DNA of 64,000 nt, taken from the NCBI RefSeq assembly GCF_032027425.1, contig NZ_JAVSJA010000001.1, forward strand, positions 2,679,501 through 2,743,500, written 5' to 3'. The notes below the pieces were generated by a model that searched no databases, was not told the origin of the DNA, and was given only the letters and a program-made list of their open reading frames with translations. How positions within the stretch are numbered: the stretch's first letter is position 1; every line of letters begins with the position of its first letter. This document shows, one piece after another, positions 45,024-62,918 of this stretch. The translations under genes were made by a program, and so were the position numbers. Source of the stretch: Microcystis wesenbergii NRERC-220. Lineage in GTDB: Bacteria; Cyanobacteriota; Cyanobacteriia; Cyanobacteriales; Microcystaceae.

Positions 45024-46271
45024 ATGAAAAAACGAGAGACTTTGCTGGAGAAGTTTTGTTGCTTTTTAGTTTTGCAGCAAAATAGGACAGAATGGAATTG
45101 CGATCGGCGTTTGCGTCGTAACATGGAAAGCTATGGCCCAATCGATCCTAATGTCGAGTCCGAGGAATATTGGTCTCTATTCTTTCACCAACAGTATCAG
45201 AATCCCGGTTCCCAAAATCATCTTTTTCGTGGGCATTTATACGCTTATTTGCAGGAACCTTGCTACTGGGCTGCTGCCGAAATCTATCAAAAATATCAAG
45301 CTAAACTAGATTATCAGATCGAAGACTACTTTAACGAAGGAATTCTTGGTTTTGAGGCTATCTTAGCTGACTTTAAGCCTTTATTCTCTACTCGCTTCGA
45401 TAATTTTGCCAATCAGAGGATTAAATATCGCTTAATCGATCGCATCCGTCAGATTAGTCAAGCATTCGGCCATAATACTTGGAGCCTACTACTTAATTCT
45501 ACCGGAGCGCGTCTCAGCCAAGCTCTCCTGGCGAGGGGATTAGTGGGAGAAACTCTCGAAAATTACCTTTTAGCTTGGGATTACTATAAAGAAATTTATG
45601 CCCAGGCAAAAATCAAAACCGATGGTAAAATTCAGGAACCTAGTCCAGAAATCTGGCAAAAAATCGCCGCTGCTTATAACTCGGATAGCCACTCTACCAT
45701 CAAAATCAGTTCTGCGACAATTAACCGATGGTTAGAGGATGCGGGAAAAGCTATTTCTGATCATTTATTTCCCCAAGGAAAAACAATTTCTCTACAGCAA
45801 CCTTTCGGGGATGGGGAAAGTAGCACGAGGGAGGAAATGATCGAAGATACTCTCCATGATACCCCTTGGCAGCAATTAGAAGCGGCGGAAAATTTTCGCG
45901 AGTCGCAACAAAATCACCAAAAAATTCTAGCTTGGTTACGCGCAGAAATTTCACAGATTTGTCAGCAGCCGCAACAGGCAAAACTGCATCCGCAAATTCA
46001 GTTAATTCTAGAGATGACTTATGGTTCAGGGTTGGGACAAGTGGCAATTGCCGCTAAGATTACAGAAATTACCACGGTGGTTATCAAACAATATCAGGTT
46101 TCTAGGGAACTGGATAAAGTTTATCGTCACCTCGCTAAAAAGTTTTTACCCTGGGCCAGCGAAAACCTGCATATTTCTTTCCAGTCTCACGATAGAGAAG
46201 TTATTAGTAAGGCAATAGAACCATGGCTAACATACTACTATCAAACCAGCGCAACAACTCAGGAGGATTAA
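45024..46271 (+). CDS. Sigma-70-like factor of a three-gene operon
   Basis: The 415-residue protein has a sigma-region-2-like segment at about 120-140 (FDNFANQRIKYRLIDRIRQ). A C-terminal region-4-like helix-turn-helix (about 330-365) includes QVAIAAKITEITTVVIKQYQ. The middle is large and not typical of housekeeping or ECF sigma factors. It is a cyanobacterial group of sigma-70-like regulators that precedes DUF1822 and CHASE2 genes. Its stop is 2 bp before the next start, so translation is coupled. ATG at 45024 is used; a second in-frame ATG at 45123 (MESYGPIDPNV) is also possible. Its promoter must lie in 44752-45023. Confidence 0.82.
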   Translation: MKKRETLLEKFCCFLVLQQNRTEWNCDRRLRRNMESYGPIDPNVESEEYWSLFFHQQYQNPGSQNHLFRGHLYAYLQEPCYWAAAEIYQKYQAKLDYQIEDYFNEGILGFEAILADFKPLFSTRFDNFANQRIKYRLIDRIRQISQAFGHNTWSLLLNSTGARLSQALLARGLVGETLENYLLAWDYYKEIYAQAKIKTDGKIQEPSPEIWQKIAAAYNSDSHSTIKISSATINRWLEDAGKAISDHLFPQGKTISLQQPFGDGESSTREEMIEDTLHDTPWQQLEAAENFRESQQNHQKILAWLRAEISQICQQPQQAKLHPQIQLILEMTYGSGLGQVAIAAKITEITTVVIKQYQVSRELDKVYRHLAKKFLPWASENLHISFQSHDREVISKAIEPWLTYYYQTSATTQED

Positions 46272-46273
46272 TT

Positions 46274-47401
46274 ATGGTTAATGATTGGTTAGAACTAACT
46301 CCTGATAGCATTTGGCTAGAAATACCCGCAGATATTCAAGAGATAAGTTGGGCAAAAAGTGCCAGTTTTACTGATGCCAGTATTCGTCAGAGATTTTATG
46401 TTAATTATCTCTGTCAACAAGTTATTTTTAACTATCTACAGTCAGGGATGCCTGGGGTTAGCTTAGTAGAAAATCAAGAGGATTTCTGGCAACTAGGAGT
46501 TAATGGTTTTACCGTTAAATTAGGCGAAAAGTCAGTAATAGTTATTGCCAGCGAAACTCTGGATCTAGAAGCGCTCGAAATTCCTCAAGAATGGGTAGAT
46601 ATTCCTCAATTAATTGGTGATTATTATCTAGCTGTACAGGTAAACACTGCCGAAAGTTATCTGAGAATTTGGGGTTATACTACCCATAAAGATATTAAGG
46701 AAAAAGGACAATATATTAAGCGTAATCTTAACTACTCTCTACCGAGAAATCAACTGCAATCAGGATCAGATTCTTTGAATTTATGGGGAGAGTGTCAATT
46801 ACAACCAGTGAAGATTGAACCGGAAAAGATGGAGGAAAAACTATCTTTAGATAGATTGACAACCTTACTAGACATCTTAGCTAATCCTCAGTTAATCTTT
46901 CCCAGAAAAGCTATTGCTTTTCAAGAATGGGCAGCAGTTATCGTCAATAGTAACTGGAGAAAAATTTTAATTACCCGTCGGCAAAAATCCCCCGTCAAGT
47001 TAACCAATTGGTTTACTGATAATTTCCCCATTGATTGGCAAAGTATCCTCGATTTTAGCTCACTGTCACTGGTTCCAGCATTCAAAAATACAGAAATTAA
47101 ACGCATCAAAGATTTAGGAGTAGAATTACTGGGAAATTCCCTCGCTTTGATGATTACTATCGCTAAAACTGAAGAAGTATTTAGCCTGCAAGCGACTGTT
47201 TACCCCACGGGAGAAACAAGCACTTTACCCCCCCATTTAAAATTAAGTATTCTCACCGAAACTGGTCAGGTTTTTCGAGAAGTAATTGCCACAGATAACG
47301 ATGAATTTATTCGTTATCGATTTGATGCTGAATTGGGGGATAAATTCTTTATTGAAGTGGCTTTAGAATCGGCAATAGTAACCGAATATTTACAAGTATA
47401 A
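46274..47401 (+). CDS. DUF1822 protein
   Basis: The 375-residue protein starts MVNDWLELTPDSIWLEI and has WAKSASFTDASIRQRFYVNY, then QVNTAESYLRIWGYTTHKDI, the DUF1822 core. It is soluble, acidic and has no signal peptide. The perfect Shine-Dalgarno AGGAGG at 46261-46266 fixes the start at 46274 although the frame is open from 46223. It sits between a sigma-like factor and a CHAT-CHASE2 protein, with gaps of 2 and 15 bp. Function is unknown; by position it could be an adaptor or anti-sigma factor, or the substrate of the CHAT domain. This is inference. Confidence 0.87.
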   Translation: MVNDWLELTPDSIWLEIPADIQEISWAKSASFTDASIRQRFYVNYLCQQVIFNYLQSGMPGVSLVENQEDFWQLGVNGFTVKLGEKSVIVIASETLDLEALEIPQEWVDIPQLIGDYYLAVQVNTAESYLRIWGYTTHKDIKEKGQYIKRNLNYSLPRNQLQSGSDSLNLWGECQLQPVKIEPEKMEEKLSLDRLTTLLDILANPQLIFPRKAIAFQEWAAVIVNSNWRKILITRRQKSPVKLTNWFTDNFPIDWQSILDFSSLSLVPAFKNTEIKRIKDLGVELLGNSLALMITIAKTEEVFSLQATVYPTGETSTLPPHLKLSILTETGQVFREVIATDNDEFIRYRFDAELGDKFFIEVALESAIVTEYLQV

Positions 47402-47416
47402 GCGAGGAAAAACTTA

Positions 47417-49879
47417 ATGATTAAACTCCTAACTCTCGAACTAGATGGCACATTTGATCGGGGATTTAAAGTAAAATTAGAAATTCGTCCCGATCTTAAT
47501 TCTCGTCCCCAAACTGTGATCAAAGCAAGGCTACCAGCTAATTTAGAGTTATTAACTCTTTACCGTCAATGGCAACGTCACTATAGTGAATTAGAGGGAT
47601 TTTTTAAAGTCTTAAAAGATAGCAATCCCCAACAAATTACCAATAGTTCTCAGCAGAGTTTAGTTTTTAAAAACTGCCAAGAAAAAGCCAAATTATTTGA
47701 GGATAACTTAAACAAATGGTTGAATAATAGCCCAGAATTTGAACCGATCAAAACCGCAATTCTGCGCTCTGGTAATAACTTTCGTATCTGGGTACAAACC
47801 GATAATATTTGGCTACAAAGATTCCCCTGGGAAAAATGGGAAATTCTCCAAAATACCGGCGCAGATATAGCCATTATTGTCTCAGAATACGATACCTTAG
47901 CCAGACAATTAAAAAATCATGAAAAAATTCGGATTTTAGCCATTTTAGGCTATGCCACCGACTTAAAATTTCTCGAAGAAGATCGCAAAACTTTAGACGA
48001 TATTGCGGGAAAAGCAGGAGCGGAAATTATCTGGGAAAAAGCTCCCCACCCGCAAAAATTAAATCAGTTATTGCGTCAAGAAACTTGGAATATTCTCTTT
48101 TTTAGCGGTCATAGTGCCAGTACAGAAGATGGCCAAGATTGCGAAATTCAACTAACAGAAACTCATAAATTAAAGATAGCTGATTTTAGCTTTTCCCTGG
48201 GAGAAGCCACTAAAAACGGGTTAAAGTTAGCGATATTTAACTCCTGTGATGGTATTGGTTTAGCACAACAACTATCACGGGAAAAAGGGATGGCATTACC
48301 CCATCTAATCTTTATGCGCGAGAAATTACCCGATCCTGTTTCTCCCAAATTTCTGCAATACTTTTTAACCGCTTTTACCAATAATAAATCTCTCTATAGT
48401 GCCGTACATGAAGCCCAAAAAAATCTGCACGATGACTGGGAAAAAGACTATCCCTGTGCCAGTTGGCTGCCCGTAGTTTGCCCCAATCCCACCGAAGAAC
48501 CCCCCACTTGGCATAGTTTTAGTAACTCCCCTCAAAAACAACAAAATTGGCGACGATTTGCTCTAACTTTCGGTTTAGGTTTAGCCGTAATGATGACAGT
48601 CTTGGCAATAAGAGAAACAGGAATTTTAGAACCCTTAGAATTAAATATTTATGATCGTCTGATGCAACTAAAACCCAAAGATAAACCCGATGAAAGATTA
48701 TTAATTATTACCATTGATCGCCAAGATTGGGAATATCAAGATCGCATGGGTATGAAAAGACCAACAATACCGGGAAGCGATCGAAAACGTTCCCTCGCAG
48801 GAGAAGCATTATCGCAGCTTTTAAATAAATTACTGCCCTACGAACCGCAAATTATCGCCTTAGATATCCTCCGTCCCATCGCTGCCAGTCAAGATTATCC
48901 ACCCCTAGCCAAACAATTACAAAATACTCCTAATTTTATCTCGATTTGTAAGTTTAATAATTACCCGCAACCGGACGGATTTCCCCCACCCCCGGAACTG
49001 CCAAAAAATCAGAGTGGTTTTAGTAACATAGTCCCAGACGAAACCATTGCCGGAGTTCCCCGAATTCGTCGTTTTTTATATCAGGCAAAACTCGATCGCA
49101 CCTCTCCCTGTCTTCCCCCGGATTCTTTGGCCAAAGTTGACTCAATGTCCTGTAATTTTAAAGATTATGCTCCTAGTTTTAGTCTCCTAATTGCCAAACG
49201 ATATCTAGAATCCCAGAATCAAGATTTTGACTGCAATAAACTGGAGCGGGGAATTCTAGAAATTAATATCGGGGATACTCATCTCGGTGACTGGCTACAA
49301 TCCAACCGCGGCCCCTACAGAACCAGTCAATCCGATACCCGATCCGGCCGTCAAGTTATGCTCGCTTACCGTCGAATCGCCGATAATGGCATCGATGCAA
49401 TCATCAAAATTGCCCCGAAAAAATCTCTCCGACAGGTTTTAGATCCGCGTTTTAATTCCGAATCAGTCCGGGAAAAAATTGTCCTGATTGGAGTAACAGA
49501 ACCCGGGATTGATGATTTTTTAACCCCCTTTAGTCGCAACCCATCGGAAGCAATTCCGGGGGTTTATTTGCACGCGCACGCGGTCAGTCAAATTCTCGAT
49601 ACAATGGAAGGAAAACGTACCTCGATCGCTTTTTGGAATCCCCTACAGGAGGCTTTCTGGGTGCTGGGTTGGTCCCTGGTGGGGGGATTATTAACGTGGC
49701 GTTTTCTTCGGGTAAAAACGGTACTTTTGACAGTGGCGATCGCTATGATTTCCCTCACCGGTATCGGTTGGCTTCTCTTTAGTTATTTCGGTCTCTGGGT
49801 TCCGATTATCCCCCCAGCGATCGCACTTCTCACCACCTCCGGTATCTTCTTTTTTCTTCGTTCTTACTACTTAAAATAG
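47417..49879 (+). CDS. CHAT-CHASE2 membrane protein
   Basis: The 820-residue protein joins two modules. The cytoplasmic N-terminal part (about 150-370) is a CHAT caspase-like domain with the dyad His232 in FFSGHSAS and Cys277 in AIFNSCDGIGLAQQL. A membrane helix follows at about 378-395. An extracytoplasmic CHASE2 domain at about 400-730 includes KDKPDERLLIITIDRQDW. Three C-terminal helices end with FFFLRSYYLK. CHASE2 senses unknown extracellular signals and CHAT domains include proteases such as HetF. Both dyad residues are present, so it may be active. It is the last gene of the sigma/DUF1822 operon. Confidence 0.88.
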   Translation: MIKLLTLELDGTFDRGFKVKLEIRPDLNSRPQTVIKARLPANLELLTLYRQWQRHYSELEGFFKVLKDSNPQQITNSSQQSLVFKNCQEKAKLFEDNLNKWLNNSPEFEPIKTAILRSGNNFRIWVQTDNIWLQRFPWEKWEILQNTGADIAIIVSEYDTLARQLKNHEKIRILAILGYATDLKFLEEDRKTLDDIAGKAGAEIIWEKAPHPQKLNQLLRQETWNILFFSGHSASTEDGQDCEIQLTETHKLKIADFSFSLGEATKNGLKLAIFNSCDGIGLAQQLSREKGMALPHLIFMREKLPDPVSPKFLQYFLTAFTNNKSLYSAVHEAQKNLHDDWEKDYPCASWLPVVCPNPTEEPPTWHSFSNSPQKQQNWRRFALTFGLGLAVMMTVLAIRETGILEPLELNIYDRLMQLKPKDKPDERLLIITIDRQDWEYQDRMGMKRPTIPGSDRKRSLAGEALSQLLNKLLPYEPQIIALDILRPIAASQDYPPLAKQLQNTPNFISICKFNNYPQPDGFPPPPELPKNQSGFSNIVPDETIAGVPRIRRFLYQAKLDRTSPCLPPDSLAKVDSMSCNFKDYAPSFSLLIAKRYLESQNQDFDCNKLERGILEINIGDTHLGDWLQSNRGPYRTSQSDTRSGRQVMLAYRRIADNGIDAIIKIAPKKSLRQVLDPRFNSESVREKIVLIGVTEPGIDDFLTPFSRNPSEAIPGVYLHAHAVSQILDTMEGKRTSIAFWNPLQEAFWVLGWSLVGGLLTWRFLRVKTVLLTVAIAMISLTGIGWLLFSYFGLWVPIIPPAIALLTTSGIFFFLRSYYLK

Positions 49880-50110: not shown

Positions 50111-52819
50111 ATGATCAAACCTTCGATCGCCCTCATCCTTCTTTTCTCCCTACTGCCTCAACCCGGGTTAACCCTTATCACCCCGGCTGCCGGAAATATT
50201 TCTAATCATCCCATTCTGACGGCACAGGGCGATCGGGAGCTTACCGAGGAGCAATTCCTACAACGAGTCACCGTTCGGATTACTAGCGAGACAAATCGGG
50301 GATCGGGGACAATTATCGCTAAAAAAGGCGATAATTACCTTATCCTAACCAACGCCCACGTTACCCGCAACACGAAAACCCTACAGGTACAAACTTACGA
50401 CGGCCACAGCCGTGCGGCCCGCATTGTCCCCAATTCCCTATCGGAGAATCAAGATCTCGCCCTGCTGGAGTTTAGCGATACCCGGGAATATTCGATCGCC
50501 ACCATCGCAAAGTTTACCATCAATCAAAACAGCATCGGTTTAGAAGTGGTGGCCGCGGGATATGTTGCCGAAACGGGACAGTATCGGACGACAAAGGGAA
50601 CCCTTGAACAGGTGAGCGATCGACCCCTCCGGGAGGGCTACAGCGTCGGTTATAGTGGCGATATCGTGCAGGGAATGAGTGGCGGCGGCATTTTTGTTGA
50701 TGGGGAGTTAATCGGCATTAACGGGCGATCGGCCCATCCGATTCTCTCTAACTACATCTACGAAGACGGCACAAAACCCACAGACGCAGAAATCCAACAG
50801 ATGAGAGCGGTTAACTGGGGCATTTCCCTTCATACCCTATTAACCTACATCCGGCCCGAAATCCTCAGCGCCTATAACCTGCCCCTACCGCAGGTGAACC
50901 CCGATATAGAAACCACCGCCCCTACTCGCTATATCGCCGAATTAGAAACAAAAGCCAAGGGTTTCACCGTGCGGATTGATAGTACGAGCGGTGGAAACGG
51001 TAGCGGTGTCATTATCGCTAAAGAAGGGAATATTTACACGGTTTTAACCGCCGATCACGTCTTCTGCGAAAAAATCAAAGGCACCACCAGATGTGCCGAT
51101 CACACCTACACCGTCGTCACCAGCGACGGCAAAACTCGAAACATCGAGAAAAGCACCATCATCCGGCAGGAAGGGGTAGATTTAGCAGTCTTTCAGTTTG
51201 AAAGCCTGGACAATTATCCCGTTGCGGAAATAGCGAATTATAACCCAAATACCGGTGATTTTGTTTTTGCCGCAGGCTTCCCCAAAATTGGCGACAATCC
51301 CTCGAAATGGTTGTTTAGTGGCGGTGCAATTCTCGAGAAAGAACAGGGATTAATACAAACCCGCCAAAGTCCTTTAAGCACTCAACAAGGGGGAACATTA
51401 CAAAGTGTTGCTTCTTTAACCGGGGGCTATGAATTAGTTTATACCAGCATCACTTATGGGGGCATGAGTGGCGGTGCAGTCTTAGACTCTCAGGGGAGAG
51501 TAATAGGGATTCATGGACGTTCAGAAGGAGCAGGGGGAGGGAAAATTCAGTTAGGGTATAGTTTAGGGATTCCCATTAGCACTTTTATCGGATTGCAAGA
51601 GAGATTGAAGGTAAAACCGCAATTATTAACCACTGCTCAACCCCAAGTTAGTCCGCAACAACAACAAGAAATTATTCAAGCGATTACTGGTGTTATTGTT
51701 CCTAATACCAATGCGAAGGCGGATATTTGGATAGAAAGGGGAGGACAATTATGGCGGTTACGGAGGTCTGAGGAAGCAATTAAGGCGTTTGATGAGGCGA
51801 TTAAGCAAAATGACCCCGATAATGTCTATTTAGCTTGGTATGGGAAGGGATTAGCGTTATTTGAATTACGCGAACATCAACCAGCTATAGAAGCTTTGCA
51901 ACAAGCGATTAATACCTTACCTAAACGGGAAGATTTAAAGAACTTTCACAGTAGTATTTTACAACTGCAAAGTGTTGTTTATCGCTATTTAGAAAATTAT
52001 GAGCAAGCCTTAACGGTGATTAATCAGGCGATTTCTCTGGTTCCCAATAACCCCAATCACTATAACGAGAAATCCTCAGTATTAAGTCGATTAAAACGCT
52101 ATGATGAGGGATTAGCGGCGATTAATCAGGCAATTAATCTCGCTCCCCGTGCTGCTTGGTATAGCAATCGGGGGGTTCTTTACCAAGATCAACAAAAATA
52201 CAAATTAGCATTAGATGACTACAACAAAGCTATTGAACTTAATCCTAATCATGCTAATGCTTACGTCAATCGGGGGATTCTTTACTATAACCAGCAGAAA
52301 TACGAATTAGCCCTATCTGACTTCAGCAAAGCCATTGACATTAATCCTAATGATGCTGAGGCTTACAGCAATCGGGGGGGTGTTTACTATAACCAGCAGA
52401 AATACGAATTAGCCCTCTCTGACATCAACAAAGCCATTGACATTAATCCTAATGATGCTGAGGCTTACTACAATCGGGGGAATCTTTACTATAACCAGCA
52501 GAAATACGATTCAGCTTTAGCTGACTACAACCAAGCTATTAAACTTAATCGTAATTTTGCTAATGCTTACGTCAATCGGGGGGCTCTTTACTATAACCAA
52601 CGAAAATACGAATTAGCTTTAGCTGACTACGACAAAGCTATTGAACTTAATCGTAATGATGCTGTGGCTTACTACAATCGTGGTGTTTTATATGCCATAT
52701 TAGGACAACCCGAAAAAGTAAAAATTGATCTACAACAAGCAGCCATATTATTCCGCCAACAGAATAATATGGCTGCTTATGAAAAGGTGATGCAGATTTT
52801 ACAACAATTAGGGGGGTGA
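50111..52819 (+). CDS. Double trypsin-like protease with TPR tail (copy 1)
   Basis: The 902-residue exported protein has a signal peptide (about 1-27). The first S1 protease domain has His83 in LTNAHVT, Asp115 in NQDLALLEF and Ser190 in GMSGGGIF. The second has His316 in LTADHVFC, Asp357 in GVDLAVFQF and Ser453 in GGMSGGAVL. About 540-860 consists of TPRs, with five exact 102-bp DNA periods (52166-52676) and a degenerate last repeat. Two complete catalytic triads in one chain are unusual. The hicAB genes start 17 bp later. The paralogue is at 57774. Confidence 0.92.
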   Translation: MIKPSIALILLFSLLPQPGLTLITPAAGNISNHPILTAQGDRELTEEQFLQRVTVRITSETNRGSGTIIAKKGDNYLILTNAHVTRNTKTLQVQTYDGHSRAARIVPNSLSENQDLALLEFSDTREYSIATIAKFTINQNSIGLEVVAAGYVAETGQYRTTKGTLEQVSDRPLREGYSVGYSGDIVQGMSGGGIFVDGELIGINGRSAHPILSNYIYEDGTKPTDAEIQQMRAVNWGISLHTLLTYIRPEILSAYNLPLPQVNPDIETTAPTRYIAELETKAKGFTVRIDSTSGGNGSGVIIAKEGNIYTVLTADHVFCEKIKGTTRCADHTYTVVTSDGKTRNIEKSTIIRQEGVDLAVFQFESLDNYPVAEIANYNPNTGDFVFAAGFPKIGDNPSKWLFSGGAILEKEQGLIQTRQSPLSTQQGGTLQSVASLTGGYELVYTSITYGGMSGGAVLDSQGRVIGIHGRSEGAGGGKIQLGYSLGIPISTFIGLQERLKVKPQLLTTAQPQVSPQQQQEIIQAITGVIVPNTNAKADIWIERGGQLWRLRRSEEAIKAFDEAIKQNDPDNVYLAWYGKGLALFELREHQPAIEALQQAINTLPKREDLKNFHSSILQLQSVVYRYLENYEQALTVINQAISLVPNNPNHYNEKSSVLSRLKRYDEGLAAINQAINLAPRAAWYSNRGVLYQDQQKYKLALDDYNKAIELNPNHANAYVNRGILYYNQQKYELALSDFSKAIDINPNDAEAYSNRGGVYYNQQKYELALSDINKAIDINPNDAEAYYNRGNLYYNQQKYDSALADYNQAIKLNRNFANAYVNRGALYYNQRKYELALADYDKAIELNRNDAVAYYNRGVLYAILGQPEKVKIDLQQAAILFRQQNNMAAYEKVMQILQQLGG

Positions 52820-55950: not shown

Positions 55951-57066
55951 ATGAAACCAATTACTTTCACCCTATCGGTGCTACTGGCCACCACTGGCCT
56001 ACTGGTTCAACCAGGAAACTTCCTGATGGAAAACGTTCCACCCCTCCTCGCCCAGGATCAGACCGCTTCTAGAGTCTATCAGAAAGCCAGCCCCGCCGTC
56101 GTCACCGTCAAAAATGGCAGCGGCCACGGTAGCGGCTTTCTCGTCAGTCCCGACGGTATCATCATTACCAACGCCCACGTTGTTGCGGACGGCCCCCGGG
56201 TGGTGACGGTGAAATTTTCCAACGGACAGCAGGCCTCGGCAGACGTGATCGGCTTCGCTAAAAATGGCGTGGATTTAGCCGTCCTGCGGATTTATAACCG
56301 CCAAAACCTGCCCTATCTTCCCCTCGCCCGTCCGAACTCCGCCAAGGTCGGCGAAAGCGTTTTCGTCATCGGTACACCCCTAGAAGAAGACTATCAAAAT
56401 ACCCTCACCCAAGGGATTATCAGCCGCCTCGACCCCCAGAAGGGGCAAATTCAACACAGTGCCAATACAAACCCCGGTAATTCGGGAGGTCCGGTGTTAA
56501 ACTCTCAGGGACAAGTAGTCGGCGTACATTATCAAGGCGATAACCAAAGTTTAGTTTATAACTCCCAAGGAAAGCCGATCGGCTATACCAAAAGTGGCAT
56601 TAATTTTGCCATCTCCCTCGATCGCCTGCAAGCTTTCCTGAAGGCAGTGGAGCGAGGGGATGTCTCTTCCGTCTCTACCCTGGCTAGGGGGAATCAAGAG
56701 CAGCCCATCCTCAGCCTTGCCCTCAACGGTCAGGCAATCCAGGGCGAGTTAAGGGAAGGCGATGCTCAGTTGCAGGATGGCAGCTACTACGACCTCTATC
56801 AATTTCAAGGTCGCGCCGGACAGAGAGTTGTCCTAGACATGAGCAGCCAACAGATTAATCCCGTCTTGACCTTGTACCGCGTTGTTAAATCCTCTGAGGG
56901 GGAGAAATTCGAGAAAATAGCGGACAACGACGATCGCGCTCCCGGGGATTTTAACGCTCGACTCGTAACCGAATTACCCACCGATGGAGTTTATATCCTA
57001 GTGGCCAACTCTCGCGAAGGGGGTGAATCGGGTCGCTACACCCTCAACGCCGCCGCTAACCCTTAA
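55951..57066 (+). CDS. HtrA-like serine protease with PPC domain
   Basis: The 371-residue exported protein has a signal peptide (about 1-35). A trypsin-like domain follows with His in IIITNAHVVADG, Asp in NGVDLAVLRI and Ser in TNPGNSGGPVLNS. After about 245 it carries a pre-peptidase C-terminal (PPC) domain (DLYQFQGRAGQRVVLDMSSQ, then TDGVYILVANSREGGESGRY). No PDZ domain is seen. The protein may handle misfolded or extracellular proteins. It is second in the exported-protein cluster. Confidence 0.92.
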   Translation: MKPITFTLSVLLATTGLLVQPGNFLMENVPPLLAQDQTASRVYQKASPAVVTVKNGSGHGSGFLVSPDGIIITNAHVVADGPRVVTVKFSNGQQASADVIGFAKNGVDLAVLRIYNRQNLPYLPLARPNSAKVGESVFVIGTPLEEDYQNTLTQGIISRLDPQKGQIQHSANTNPGNSGGPVLNSQGQVVGVHYQGDNQSLVYNSQGKPIGYTKSGINFAISLDRLQAFLKAVERGDVSSVSTLARGNQEQPILSLALNGQAIQGELREGDAQLQDGSYYDLYQFQGRAGQRVVLDMSSQQINPVLTLYRVVKSSEGEKFEKIADNDDRAPGDFNARLVTELPTDGVYILVANSREGGESGRYTLNAAANP

Positions 57067-57773: not shown

Positions 57774-60700
57774 ATGTTGAAACCCTTTCCCCTACTCCTA
57801 AGCCTCCTACTTCTGCCCGTCGTACCGGTTAAAGCGATATCCCCTTTCTCTGCTCCGGCGATCGTGGCGGAAGACAGCCCAAACGCGCAGATCGAGCGAT
57901 CGATCCGTCAAGTCACTGTTAAGATTACTAGCGAGATAAATCGGGGATCGGGAATCATTATCGGGAAAAAAGGCAGTATATACCTCGTTTTGACCAACGC
58001 TCACGTTACCCGCGGCGCGACCACCCTACAGATCCAAACCCACGACGGCCAAACCCGCACAGCCTCGATCGCGCCGAATTCCCTTTTGGAAGATAAGGAT
58101 CTGGCCCTACTGGAGTTTAGCGATACCAGGGATTATGCGATCGCTAAAATTAGCGCCATTCCCCTGGAAGCGGGACTAGATATCACCGTAACTGGTTATT
58201 CCGCAGAAACGGGGCAGTACACCACCGATAACGGGAAAATTGAACAGACGAGCGATCGACCCCTCCGGGAGGGCTACAGCGTCGGTTATAGTGGCGAGAT
58301 CGTGCAGGGAATGAGTGGCGGTGGTATCTTTTTCGACGATGAGTTAATCGGTATTAACGGGCGATCGGCCTATCCGATTCTCTCTAACTACATCTACGAA
58401 GACGGTACAAAACCCACAGACGCAGAAATCCAACAGATGAGAGCGGTTAATTGGGGCATTTCCATCAATACCCTATTAACCTACATCCGTCCCGAAATCC
58501 TCAGCGCCTATAACCTACCTCTACCGCAGGTGAACCCCGATATAGAAACCACCGCCCCTACTGACTATATCGCCGAATTAGAAACAAAAGCCAAGGGTTT
58601 CACCGTGCGGATTGATAGTAGCAGTAAAGCCAATGGAAGTGGCGTAATTATCGCTAAAGAAGGGAATATTTACACAGTTTTAACCGCCGCTCACGTCCTC
58701 TGCGAAAAAATCGCCGAGGAGAAAACCTGTGTCAATTTCACCTACACCTTCGTCACCAGGGACGGCAAAACTCGAAACATCGAGAAAAGCACCATCATCC
58801 GGCAGGAAGGGGTAGATTTAGCAGTTTTTCAGTTTGAAAGCCGAGACAATTATCCCGTTGCGGAAATAGCGAATTATAACCCAAATACCAGAGATTATGT
58901 TTTTGCGGCAGGATTTCCGAAAATTGGCAACAATCCCTCGAAATGGTTGTTTAGTGGCGGTACAATTAACGATAAAGAAGGGGGATTAATACAAACCCGC
59001 CAAAGTGACTTAAGCACTCAACAAAGTGGAACATTACAAAGTGTTGCTTCTTTAACCGGAGGCTATGAATTAGTTTATACCAGCATCACATTTGGGGGCA
59101 TGAGTGGCGGTGCAGTCTTAGACTCCCAGGGGAGAGTAATAGGGATTCATGGACGTTCAGAAGGAGCAGGGGTAGGGAAAATTCAGTTAGGGTTTAGTTT
59201 AGGGATTCCCATTAGCACTTTTATCGGATTGCAAGAAAGATTGAAGGTAAAACCGCAATTATTAACCACTACTCAACCCCAAGTTAGTCAGCAACAAAAA
59301 CAAGAAATTATTAAAGCGATTGATAGTATTATTGTTCCTAATACGAATGCAACAGCGGATATTTGGATAGAAAGGGGGGGACAATTACATCGGTTAGGAA
59401 GGTATGAGGAAGCAATTAAAGCCTTTGATGAGGCGATTAAGCAAAATGACCCCGATAATGTCTATTTAGCTTGGTATGGGAAGGGATTTGCGTTAGGTAA
59501 TTTAGGTCAATATCAACCAGCTATAGAAGCTTTGCAACAAGCGATTAATACCTTACCTAAAGGGGAAGATTTAAAGAACTTTCACAGTAGTATTTTACAA
59601 CTGCAAAGTGTAGTTTATCGCTCTTTAGAAAATTATGAGCAAGCCTTAACGGTGATTAATCAGGCGATTTCTCTGTTTCCCAATAACCCCAATTACTATA
59701 ACGAGAAATATGTAGTATTAAGTGAATTAAAACGCTATGATGAGGGATTAGCGGCGATTACTCAGGCAATTCATCTCGCTCCCCGTGCTGCTTGGTATGG
59801 CAATCGGGGGGTTCTTTACTCTGACTTGCAGAAATACGAATTAGCTCTCTCTGACTACAACAAAGCTATTGACATTAATCCTAATTATGCTATGGCTTAC
59901 TACAATCGGGGGATTCTTTACTATAACCAGCAGAAATACGAATTAGCCCTCTCTGACTACAACAAAGCTATTGACATTAATCCTAATGATGCTTTGGCTT
60001 ACAACAATCGGGGGGTTCTTTACTCTGACTTGCAGAAATACGAATTAGCCCTCTCTGACTACAGCAAAGCCATTGACATTAATCCTAATGATGCTAAGGC
60101 TTACTACAATCGGGGGAATCTTTACAAAAACTTGCAGAAATACGATTTAGCCCTCTCTGACTACAGCAAAGCCATTGAAATTAATCCTAAGTTTGCTATG
60201 GCTTACAACAATCGGGGGGTTCTTTACTCTGACTTGCAGAAATACGAATTAGCCCTCTCTGACTTCAGCAAAGCCATTGAAATTAATCGTAATTTTGCTA
60301 TGGCTTACAACAATCGGGGGGTTCTTTACTCTGACTTGCAGAAATACGAATTAGCTCTCTCTGACTACAACAAAGCCATTGACATTAATCCTAATGATGC
60401 TGACGCTTACAACAATCGGGGGTTTCTTTACTATAACCAGCAGAAATACGAATTAGCCCTCTCTGACTACAACAAAGCTATTGACATTAATCCTAATTAT
60501 GCTAATGCTTACAACAATCGGGGGGTTCTTTACAAAAACTTGCAGAAATACGAATTAGCTCTCTCTGACTACAACAAAGCCATTGACATTAATCCTAATT
60601 ATGCTAATGCTTACAACAATCGGGGGCTTCTTTACCATAACCAGCAGAAATACGAATTAGCATTAGATGATTACAACAAAGCCATTGAAATTAATCCTAA

Positions 60701-62918
60701 GTTTGCTATGGCTTACAACAATCGGGGGGTTCTTTACTCTGACTTGCAGAAATACGAATTAGCCCTCTCTGACTTCAGCAAAGCCATTGAAATTAATCGT
60801 AATTTTGCTATGGCTTACAACAATCGGGGGGTTCTTTACTCTGACTTGCAGAAATACGAATTAGCTCTCTCTGACTACAACAAAGCCATTGACATTAATC
60901 CTAATGATGCTGATGCTTACGTCAATCGGGGGAATCTTTACTCTGACTTGCAGAAATACGATTTAGCCCTCTCTGACTACAACAAAGCTATTGACATTAA
61001 TCCTAATTATGCTGATGCTTACTACAATCGGGGGAATCTTTACTATAACCAGCAGAAATACGAATTAGCCCTCTCTGACTACAACAAAGCCATTGACATT
61101 AATCCTAATTATGCTAATGCTTACAACAATCGGGGGAATCTTTACTATAACCAGCAGAAATACGAATTAGCCCTCTCTGACTACAACAAAGCCATTGACA
61201 TTAATCCTAATGATGCTGATGCTTACGTCAATCGGGGGAATCTTTACTATAACCAGCAGAAATACGATTTAGCCCTCTCTGACTACAACAAAGCCATTGA
61301 CATTAATCCTAATGATGCTGATGCTTACTACAATCGGGGGAATCTTTACTATAACCAGCAGAAATACGAATTAGCCCTCTCTGACTACAACAAAGCCATT
61401 GACATTAATCCTAATTATGCTAATGCTTACAACAATCGGGGGAATCTTTACTATAACCAGCAGAAATACGATTTAGCCCTCTCTGACTACAACAAAGCCA
61501 TTGACATTAATCCTAATGATGCTAATGCTTACAACAATCGGGGGAATCTTTACTATAACCAGCAGAAATACGATTTAGCCCTCTCTGACTACAACAAAGC
61601 CATTGACATTAATCCTAATGATGCTGATGCTTACGTCAATCGGGGGAATCTTTACTCTGACTTGCAGAAATACGATTTAGCCCTCTCTGACTACAACAAA
61701 GCTATTGACATTAATCCTAATTATGCTGATGCTTACTACAATCGGGGGGTTCTTTACTCTGACTTGCAGAAATACGAATTAGCCCTCTCTGACTACAACA
61801 AAGCCATTGACATTAATCCTAATTATGCTGATGCTTACTACAATCGGGGGGTTCTTTACTCTGACTTGCAGAAATACGAATTAGCCCTCTCTGACTACAA
61901 CAAAGCCATTGACATTAATCCTAATTATGCTGATGCTTACTACAATCGGGGGATTCTTTACTCTGACTTGCAGAAATACGATTTAGCCCTCTCTGACTAC
62001 AACAAAGCTATTGACATTAATCCTAATTATGCTGATGCTTACTACAATCGGGGGATTCTTTACTCTGACTTGCAGAAATACGAATTAGCCCTCTCTGACT
62101 ACAACAAAGCTATTGACATTAATCCTAATTATGCTAATGCTTACAACAATCGGGGGAATCTTTACTCTGACTTGCAGAAATACGAATTAGCCCTCTCTGA
62201 CTACAACAAAGCTATTGACATTAATCCTAATTATGCTGATGCTTACTACAATCGGGGGATTCTTTACTCTGACTTGCAGAAATACGAATTAGCCCTCTCT
62301 GACTACAACAAAGCTATTGACATTAATCCTAATTATGCTAATGCTTACAACAATCGGGGGAATCTTTACTCTGACTTGCAGAAATACGAATTAGCCCTCT
62401 CTGACTACAACAAAGCTATTGACATTAATCCTAATTATGCTAATGCTTACAACAATCGGGGGAATCTTTACTCTGACTTGCAGAAATACGAATTAGCCCT
62501 CTCTGACTACAACAAAGCTATTGACATTAATCCTAATTATGCTAATGCTTACAACAATCGGGGGAATCTTTACTATAACCAGCAGAAATACGATTTAGCC
62601 CTCTCTGACTACAACAAAGCTATTGACATTAATCCTAATTATGCTAATGCTTACAACAATCGGGGGAATCTTTACTATAACCAGCAGAAATACGATTTAG
62701 CCCTCTCTGACTACAACAAAGCCATTGACATTAATCCTAATGATGCTGATGCTTACGTCAATCGGGGGGTTGTTTATGCCCTGACAAGAGAGTTTCCAAA
62801 AGCCCTTGCTGATGCCGAAAAAGCCTCAGAATTATATCGTCAACAAGGGAATGAAGCAGGTTATCAACAAGCTCAAAAACTAATCAGCATGATTCGCCAA
62901 GAAATGAGTAAAAATTAG
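57774..62918 (+). CDS. Double trypsin-like protease with 30-repeat TPR array (copy 2)
   Basis: The 1714-residue exported protein is the paralogue of the protein at 50111. It has a signal peptide and two S1 domains with complete triads (LTNAHVT, KDLALLEF, GMSGGGIF; then LTAAHVLC, GVDLAVFQF, GGMSGGAVL). The C-terminal two-thirds is TPRs. From 59802 to 62760 the DNA repeats 29 times with a period of exactly 102 bp (34 residues) and no indel. Units differ mainly in SDLQ, YNQQ or KNLQ after the LY and in the loop. A non-repeat tail (ALTREFPKALADAEKASELY) ends it. The higBA genes start 11 bp later. Confidence 0.93.
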   Translation: MLKPFPLLLSLLLLPVVPVKAISPFSAPAIVAEDSPNAQIERSIRQVTVKITSEINRGSGIIIGKKGSIYLVLTNAHVTRGATTLQIQTHDGQTRTASIAPNSLLEDKDLALLEFSDTRDYAIAKISAIPLEAGLDITVTGYSAETGQYTTDNGKIEQTSDRPLREGYSVGYSGEIVQGMSGGGIFFDDELIGINGRSAYPILSNYIYEDGTKPTDAEIQQMRAVNWGISINTLLTYIRPEILSAYNLPLPQVNPDIETTAPTDYIAELETKAKGFTVRIDSSSKANGSGVIIAKEGNIYTVLTAAHVLCEKIAEEKTCVNFTYTFVTRDGKTRNIEKSTIIRQEGVDLAVFQFESRDNYPVAEIANYNPNTRDYVFAAGFPKIGNNPSKWLFSGGTINDKEGGLIQTRQSDLSTQQSGTLQSVASLTGGYELVYTSITFGGMSGGAVLDSQGRVIGIHGRSEGAGVGKIQLGFSLGIPISTFIGLQERLKVKPQLLTTTQPQVSQQQKQEIIKAIDSIIVPNTNATADIWIERGGQLHRLGRYEEAIKAFDEAIKQNDPDNVYLAWYGKGFALGNLGQYQPAIEALQQAINTLPKGEDLKNFHSSILQLQSVVYRSLENYEQALTVINQAISLFPNNPNYYNEKYVVLSELKRYDEGLAAITQAIHLAPRAAWYGNRGVLYSDLQKYELALSDYNKAIDINPNYAMAYYNRGILYYNQQKYELALSDYNKAIDINPNDALAYNNRGVLYSDLQKYELALSDYSKAIDINPNDAKAYYNRGNLYKNLQKYDLALSDYSKAIEINPKFAMAYNNRGVLYSDLQKYELALSDFSKAIEINRNFAMAYNNRGVLYSDLQKYELALSDYNKAIDINPNDADAYNNRGFLYYNQQKYELALSDYNKAIDINPNYANAYNNRGVLYKNLQKYELALSDYNKAIDINPNYANAYNNRGLLYHNQQKYELALDDYNKAIEINPKFAMAYNNRGVLYSDLQKYELALSDFSKAIEINRNFAMAYNNRGVLYSDLQKYELALSDYNKAIDINPNDADAYVNRGNLYSDLQKYDLALSDYNKAIDINPNYADAYYNRGNLYYNQQKYELALSDYNKAIDINPNYANAYNNRGNLYYNQQKYELALSDYNKAIDINPNDADAYVNRGNLYYNQQKYDLALSDYNKAIDINPNDADAYYNRGNLYYNQQKYELALSDYNKAIDINPNYANAYNNRGNLYYNQQKYDLALSDYNKAIDINPNDANAYNNRGNLYYNQQKYDLALSDYNKAIDINPNDADAYVNRGNLYSDLQKYDLALSDYNKAIDINPNYADAYYNRGVLYSDLQKYELALSDYNKAIDINPNYADAYYNRGVLYSDLQKYELALSDYNKAIDINPNYADAYYNRGILYSDLQKYDLALSDYNKAIDINPNYADAYYNRGILYSDLQKYELALSDYNKAIDINPNYANAYNNRGNLYSDLQKYELALSDYNKAIDINPNYADAYYNRGILYSDLQKYELALSDYNKAIDINPNYANAYNNRGNLYSDLQKYELALSDYNKAIDINPNYANAYNNRGNLYSDLQKYELALSDYNKAIDINPNYANAYNNRGNLYYNQQKYDLALSDYNKAIDINPNYANAYNNRGNLYYNQQKYDLALSDYNKAIDINPNDADAYVNRGVVYALTREFPKALADAEKASELYRQQGNEAGYQQAQKLISMIRQEMSKN
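59802..62760 (+). repeat. 102-bp TPR-coding tandem array (29 periods)
   Basis: The AATCGGGGG landmark occurs at 59802, 59904 and so on to 62760, always 102 bp apart. Higher-order copies are visible: about 60168-60404 recurs 510 bp (five units) later, and the unit with TACGTCAATCGGGGGAATCT then CTCTGACTTG recurs 714 bp (seven units) later. The codon phase is conserved through all units. Confidence 0.95.

Follow-up and report, generated by a model that had tools for sequence, protein, structure and literature searches.

A sigma-70-family gene, a DUF1822 gene and a CHAT-CHASE2 protease gene form a recurrent cyanobacterial unit and a possible signal-gated transcription switch

In a stretch of 64,000 nucleotides from Microcystis wesenbergii NRERC-220 (genome of 4.68 Mb in two contigs), hereafter called the window, three genes follow one another on the + strand between positions 45024 and 49879: a sigma-70-family gene (SIG), a DUF1822 gene and a gene encoding a CHAT-CHASE2 protein. 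All three open reading frames (ORFs) run in the same direction with intergenic gaps of 2 and 15 bp, as the coupling described in a first-pass annotation of this DNA had it. We consider it close to an even call that the unit is a signal-gated transcription switch of the EACC2-caspase/sigma/DUF1822 kind, in which the protease acts on a DUF1822 protein that controls the sigma factor. This reading is carried by the gene families and their recurrent order, the conserved catalytic dyad and predicted membrane anchor of the protease, the predicted sigma fold of SIG, and a protease half that stays constant while the sensor changes. We take the unit as a member of a kind already predicted in print, because passages of Kaur et al. 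2021 (eLife, PMC8195603) describe EACC2-caspase proteins whose C-termini vary and can be CHASE2, and report an extracytoplasmic function (ECF) sigma factor and DUF1822 in most of the neighbourhoods that lack a TRADD-N gene. The EACC2 domain itself was matched here by description and position.

The association of the three families was quantified in 194 cyanobacterial genomes. The survey counts refer to the matches listed, which comprise 150 DUF1822, 58 long sigma-family and 149 CHAT places; second pieces of one gene were dropped, as were sigma matches under about 60 bits, mostly region-4-only matches to other sigma-like genes. A DUF1822 gene lies directly after 54 of the 58 long sigma-family genes, and a CHAT gene directly after 77 of the 150 DUF1822 genes. 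Random placement in genomes of 5 Mb would yield about 0.03 and 0.09 such adjacencies, respectively, and chance adjacency is thus rejected. A survey of co-occurrence had been proposed together with the first-pass annotation; it returned at least 19 complete trios in 15 genomes and at least 29 genomes in which all three families are present. Trios were defined by their order, and the middle position of DUF1822 is a result only through one count: listed CHAT genes that follow a sigma gene within 1.2 kb and lack a DUF1822 gene immediately in front number 0 of 149.

Another 61 DUF1822 genes, none with a long sigma gene, are preceded by members of a short family that is provisionally ECF-like. The profile of this family was built from 10 genes picked for lying upstream of DUF1822, so that 10 of the 61 adjacencies are circular; without them the count is 51 of 140. 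The label "sigma-like" is provisional for this family because only some members score as sigma factors: among the ten, three match TIGR02937 and four the SigK model (E up to 1). Against sigma chains in the PDB, the profile reaches E values of 0.028 or worse. Taking either kind of upstream gene, 115 of the 150 DUF1822 genes lie directly after a sigma-like gene and 35 have neither; 38 of the 150 have neither a long sigma nor a CHAT neighbour according to the two profiles. DUF1822 therefore accompanies sigma-like genes of two kinds.

The same order was found at the level of individual loci. A search with the single SIG sequence gave matches in 31 of the 194 genomes. Among 55 sigma ORFs, taken from 53 sigma neighbourhoods, the host genome's second DUF1822 locus (L086, found through DUF1822) and the window, 50 have DUF1822 as the next gene; for 15 a CHAT gene of the family comes after it, with CHASE2 in 11 cases. 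For the named loci, of which the best 80 of 407 were used, DUF1822 follows 76 of 82 sigma ORFs and a CHAT gene follows nine, eight of them with CHASE2; two Microcystis genes that are broken enter this set as two ORFs apiece. The closest named loci for the whole SIG protein belong to M. viridis, M. aeruginosa and M. wesenbergii (94-96%). The two sets overlap in genomes (e.g. L041 and L138), and the gap limit of the locus counts missed at least one sigma-DUF1822 pair (L177, overlap of 130 bp).

As a single sequence, SIG scores 41.4 bits against the NCBIfam sigma70-ECF model (TIGR02937), slightly below the cut-off of 42.9, and 13.6 bits against Pfam Sigma70_r2 (cut-off 24). A profile of 49 family sequences matches PDB chains in sigma region 4 (best E value 5.6e-10) and, more weakly, in region 2 (1e-4). 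The AlphaFold2 (AF2) model of SIG (mean predicted local distance difference test score, pLDDT, of 81.0; predicted template modelling score of 0.44) was submitted to two fold comparisons of 50 listed rows each, and every listed row was an RNA polymerase or sigma-factor entry. Only domain matches of this model are counted, because the whole-chain root-mean-square deviation of about 25 Å reflects domain arrangement; the best of them is domain 2 of SigA with 1.9 Å over 94 residues. In Foldseek the best E value was 1.1e-3, and no match reached 0.001. Regions 2 and 4 of the sigma-70 family are thus both present by profile and fold, with single-sequence scores below the cut-offs, and the earlier description of the gene as sigma-70-like holds because the profile matches both regions and the listed fold rows are all RNA polymerase or sigma factors. 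The "unusual long middle" that had been ascribed to SIG needs qualification: a low-confidence linker at residues 251-283 lies within it, and profile positions 209-297 weakly match a region-3-like stretch of RpoD/SigA (E 0.03 to 0.2), so that the middle partly appears to be a region-3-like segment.

The same linker, along with an N-terminal extension that precedes region 2, would suit a different arrangement, in which the sigma-like protein itself is the substrate of the protease (a pro-sigma factor) and DUF1822 serves as adaptor or scaffold. We regard this as very improbable, as no listed CHAT gene directly follows SIG without DUF1822, and 58 of the 150 listed DUF1822 genes have CHAT next but no long SIG gene upstream.

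The DUF1822 protein matches PF08852 with E = 2.5e-62 over 370 of 370 model positions. Its ORF was taken from the ATG at 46274, which gives 375 aa; the mechanical ORF start is 46223. The AF2 model consists of an alpha/beta domain and an immunoglobulin (Ig)-like domain, joined by a linker in which pLDDT falls below 50 at residues 241-253, 257-259 and 261-271. Since the model contains no TPR array, the designation of DUF1822 as a TPR protein was rejected. In longer copies (L080, L083, L084 and L086), a helical-repeat-like insertion is seen in the linker between the N-terminal and Ig-like parts. DUF1822 gave no match to PDB chain sequences at E up to 1. Ig-like domains dominate the fold lists, in which no known anti-sigma factor appears, an absence that carries no evidential weight.

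The third gene encodes the putative sensor protease, with Pfam matches to CHAT (PF12770, 1.1e-10) and CHASE2 (PF05226, 1.6e-47). A conserved block N-terminal to CHAT is present in 31 aligned sequences and its identity as EACC2 rests on description and position. The first-pass annotation had read an intact dyad of His232 and Cys277 from this protein; both residues are found at these positions and are conserved in homologues, a check suggested at the time, with His in 55 of 55 sequences and Cys in 54 of 54 where aligned. Hydropathy places hydrophobic helices at residues 380-398, between CHAT and CHASE2, and at 766-813, consistent with a cytoplasmic protease, a CHASE2 domain outside the membrane and a C-terminal membrane part. 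The predicted helix that joins CHAT to CHASE2 also supports the earlier proposal of a membrane-anchored sensor protease. Among the homologues, chosen for differing length rather than at random, the sensor is swapped on a protease half that stays the same: besides CHASE2, we found Peripla_BP_6/ANF receptor domains (L086, L090, L095), nSTAND1 with WD40 (L091, L182) or alone (L106), and TPR (L084, L096). The variable C-terminal domain of EACC2-caspase systems, CHASE2 included, is thus present here. According to parts of a 2020 review, CHASE2 and ANF-receptor domains have been reported for some cyanobacterial orthocaspases. As a separate observation, a DUF928 gene lies directly after the CHAT-CHASE2 gene in four of five CHASE2-type loci scanned (L051, L078, L079 and L083; none in L043), and a 2017 paper, in the part concerned, describes CHASE2 and DUF928 genes adjoining in one cluster.

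In the proposed mechanism, CHASE2 would sense a ligand outside the membrane, and the signal would cross via the membrane helix to activate the cytoplasmic CHAT cysteine protease. The protease would then act on DUF1822, putatively a two-domain protein of the cytoplasm by which the sigma factor of the unit is held or controlled in some other way, and the freed sigma factor would direct RNA polymerase to a regulon. That DUF1822 binds the sigma factor, that CHAT cuts DUF1822 and not itself or the sigma factor, and that control runs in this direction, we infer from analogous systems. The likeliest arrangement, by analogy with Csx29-Csx30-sigma and HetF-PatU3-HetZ, has DUF1822 regulate the sigma factor, together with a protease gated by a signal. 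The wiring suggested in the first-pass annotation, with DUF1822 cleaved on signal to release the sigma-like protein, is plausible. It is better founded by the survey, because DUF1822 stays with two kinds of sigma-like genes and with several caspase-fold architectures.

Several known systems were compared with the unit. With EACC2-caspase systems, as they are outlined in passages of PMC8195603, it shares the constant N-terminal alpha+beta domain followed by a caspase-like domain, the variable C-terminus that can be CHASE2 with membrane helices, and the ECF sigma factor and DUF1822 genes as neighbours. It differs in that SIG is longer than an ECF factor and in that DUF1822, termed a "TPR protein" in that part of the paper, is modelled here as alpha/beta plus Ig-like. 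In Craspase, according to the relevant passages of PMC10028731, Csx29 (TPR-CHAT) cleaves Csx30, an inhibitor of CASP-sigma, and this proteolysis relieves the inhibition of the sigma factor; a CHAT protease, a third protein and a sigma factor are likewise encoded together. In contrast, the sensor here is CHASE2 and not RNA, and DUF1822 matches no PDB chain in sequence. The analogy to type III-E CRISPR systems drawn at the outset therefore stands for the logic of the three components and not for membership: no Cas match was found with PADLOC-DB in the trio, the adjacent trypsin-TPR gene or ten further genes within 38370-62915, and type III-E membership, which would call for Cas7-11/gRAMP and Csx30/Csx31 beside the CHAT protease, was rejected. 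In Anabaena, HetF, also a cyanobacterial membrane-anchored CHAT protein, has as its target an inhibitor that binds a regulator of transcription (PMC12288457 and PMC8406250, in part); sections of the former, a review, state that PatU3 binds HetZ and makes less of it available, and that HetF is able to cleave PatU3. HetF carries TPR where the present protein carries CHASE2, and at 14.5 bits against the NCBIfam CellDiv_HetF model (cut-off 1200) the latter is not a member of the HetF family. The CalpL-CalpT-CalpS system of type III CRISPR resembles the proposed unit in combining a protease, a cleaved partner and a transcription output, and differs in that a Lon protease and a SAVED sensor take the place of CHAT and CHASE2.

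An alternative with the same components would make DUF1822 a positive partner of the sigma factor, i.e. a co-activator or promoter-binding subunit instead of an inhibitor, with CHAT cleavage turning the pair off or maturing it. The resemblance invoked for such a role is borderline and concerns a domain that was not folded on its own, and the closest worked analogues use an inhibitor; we judge this alternative to be improbable.

A number of observations weigh against a protease-controlled DUF1822 switch, the first two also against a circuit that always needs all three parts. Among 123 distinct sigma-DUF1822 pairs, only 28 have a CHAT gene of the family next on the same strand, and for 81 no caspase-fold gene was found within 1.5 kb downstream on that strand; eight pairs end near a contig edge, and for nine pairs without an adjacent family CHAT gene, the stretch that was fetched contains one on the other strand. 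In one genome with a sigma-DUF1822 pair (G054), the profile of the CHAT family finds nothing at E up to 0.001. Among the matches listed, sigma, DUF1822 and CHAT are never fused; the longest frames there reach 509 aa for DUF1822 and 559 aa for the sigma family. Sequence searches of DUF1822 against Pfam and PDB returned no known anti-sigma factor. Finally, the DUF1822 linker has a median length of 50 in CHAT-associated copies (n = 29) and 49 in the others (n = 101); as its length does not differ with the presence of CHAT, no cleavage-site signature was found by this measure, and such a signature was rejected.

Six of the 123 pairs are followed by a differently built caspase-fold gene, five of them TPR-CHAT and one C14-nSTAND1. 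These genes were sought with three queries, and about 1.3 would be expected at their density in the fetched loci. The TPR-CHAT genes, an architecture named for Csx29, lie on the same strand as the pair in L044, L050, L054, L179 and L186, with gaps of -68 to 320 bp. The sigma-DUF1822 pair, which is also the neighbour pair of EACC2-caspase systems, is the core of the unit, and the protease is a frequent, non-obligatory third part, because 28 family CHAT and six other caspase-fold genes stand against 81 pairs with none found.

The frequent absence of an adjacent CHAT gene from sigma-DUF1822 pairs would also fit a reading near that of Kaur et al. 2021, in which CHAT mainly activates itself by autoproteolysis and is an effector of death or stress, with sigma factor and DUF1822 as a parallel transcription arm. 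Parts of that paper propose activation by autopeptidase activity, with the final step via the TRADD-N product and/or the sigma factor, and for 72 of the 149 CHAT places listed, no DUF1822 gene is listed directly upstream. This reading leaves unexplained both the frequent DUF1822-CHAT adjacency (77 of 150) and the lack of any listed CHAT gene right after a sigma gene without DUF1822, and we hold it to be unlikely.

In a wider and more tentative sense, which we find possible and on the whole rather doubtful, DUF1822 would be a large unrecognised class of cyanobacterial cytoplasmic sigma regulators, composed of a nuclease-like fold turned protein binder and an Ig-like domain. Sensor proteases of the caspase fold, exchangeable for one another, would cut these regulators, and a single cassette design would thereby couple many signals to alternative sigma factors outside CRISPR. 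If the proposed wiring is right, caspase-like proteases would serve as general, sensor-swappable transcription switches in cyanobacteria and not only in cell death or CRISPR immunity. That 115 of the 150 DUF1822 genes listed come immediately after a sigma-like gene provides a concrete functional hypothesis for a family of unknown function. In the open-licence literature, we found no experiment on EACC2-caspase/sigma/DUF1822 systems and nothing that links CHASE2 and CHAT with a sigma factor, or CHASE2 and the CHAT domain with cyanobacteria. Kaur et al. 2021 was the only relevant source found there on EACC2; on DUF1822 only table entries were found besides it, and on ECF sigma factors together with the CHAT domain only Craspase. 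The present analysis contributes statistics centred on DUF1822, an assignment of SIG to the sigma factors by profile and fold, a non-TPR model of DUF1822 and the observation that the protease is optional.

Table 1. Coordinates of the unit and its predicted parts in the window.
Feature	Position	Strand	Basis
SIG, sigma-70-family protein, 415 aa	45024..46271	+	ORF; TIGR02937 41.4 bits; profile match to solved sigma factors; predicted fold
SIG region-2-like domain, residues 47-145	45162..45458	+	
SIG region-4-like helix-turn-helix, residues 337-370	46032..46133	+	invariant columns Q339, Q356, S360, R361; profile match 1l0o_C 5.6e-10
DUF1822 protein, 375 aa, no predicted membrane helix	46274..47401	+	PF08852 2.5e-62; hydropathy
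DUF1822 N-terminal alpha/beta domain, residues 13-165	46310..46768	+	
DUF1822 low-confidence linker, residues 241-271, invariant W246 and W255	46994..47086	+	pLDDT; conservation
DUF1822 C-terminal Ig-like beta-sandwich, residues 275-374	47096..47395	+	AF2 model; fold comparisons
CHAT-CHASE2 putative sensor protease, 820 aa	47417..49879	+	PF12770, PF05226
Constant N-terminal (EACC2-like) and CHAT domain, residues 1-370	47417..48526	+	alignment of 31 sequences
Catalytic His232 codon	48110..48112	+	H in 55/55 aligned sequences
Catalytic Cys277 codon	48245..48247	+	C in 54/55 aligned sequences; the remaining one is a gap in a fragment
Predicted membrane helix, residues 380-398	48554..48610	+	mean hydropathy 1.91
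CHASE2 predicted extracytoplasmic sensor domain, residues 392-758	48590..49690	+	PF05226 1.6e-47
Predicted C-terminal membrane helices, residues 766-813	49712..49855	+	hydropathy
Possible fourth gene in Microcystis: two trypsin-like domains and TPR, hydrophobic N-terminus	50111..52819	+	Pfam

A group of loci, mostly from Nostocales (L041, L046, L117, L122, L128, L162, L176 and others), has a two-block promoter-like element, GAAACAT-N13/14-GTAGTAAAG, in front of the sigma gene, mostly 58-74 nt before the estimated sigma start. It does not occur upstream of the SIG gene at 45024. The second block, GTAGTAAAG, is matched at 14 or more of 17 letters in 19 of 108 dereplicated upstream stretches. In 12 genomes the short pattern is not enriched (30 matches vs 44 for the reversed control); the full form has four matches there, each just upstream of a sigma gene of the SIG family, and its support is weak because the loci are related. 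The element is a candidate self-regulated promoter.

The unit is bordered upstream of SIG by a divergent FtsH-like gene and, 231 bp downstream, by the trypsin-TPR gene, as judged from ORFs and Pfam. The latter also lies 3' of the CHAT gene in four of six other Microcystis loci (L033, L108, L109, L110); the stretches of the other two, L107 and L111, end early. Trypsin-like and TPR proteins are clustered near the unit, because the genes at 55951-57063 and 57774-62915 match protease and TPR models in PADLOC-DB.

In L107 and L111 the sigma gene contains in-frame stops, and the CHAT frame (L107) or the DUF1822 frame (L111) is interrupted as well. A Microcystis draft genome in 280 contigs (G097) has no match to the window's copy. 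A complete cyanobacterial-type trio on a contig titled Crocinitomicaceae, from a metagenome-assembled genome (L139), is perhaps mis-binned or transferred. The host genome carries a second unit (L086:8129-13294, on contig C1 at about 113 kb), which consists of a sigma-like gene, DUF1822 and a CHAT gene with TPR and a periplasmic-binding-like domain, and which is followed by a PspA/IM30-like gene and a further periplasmic-binding protein.

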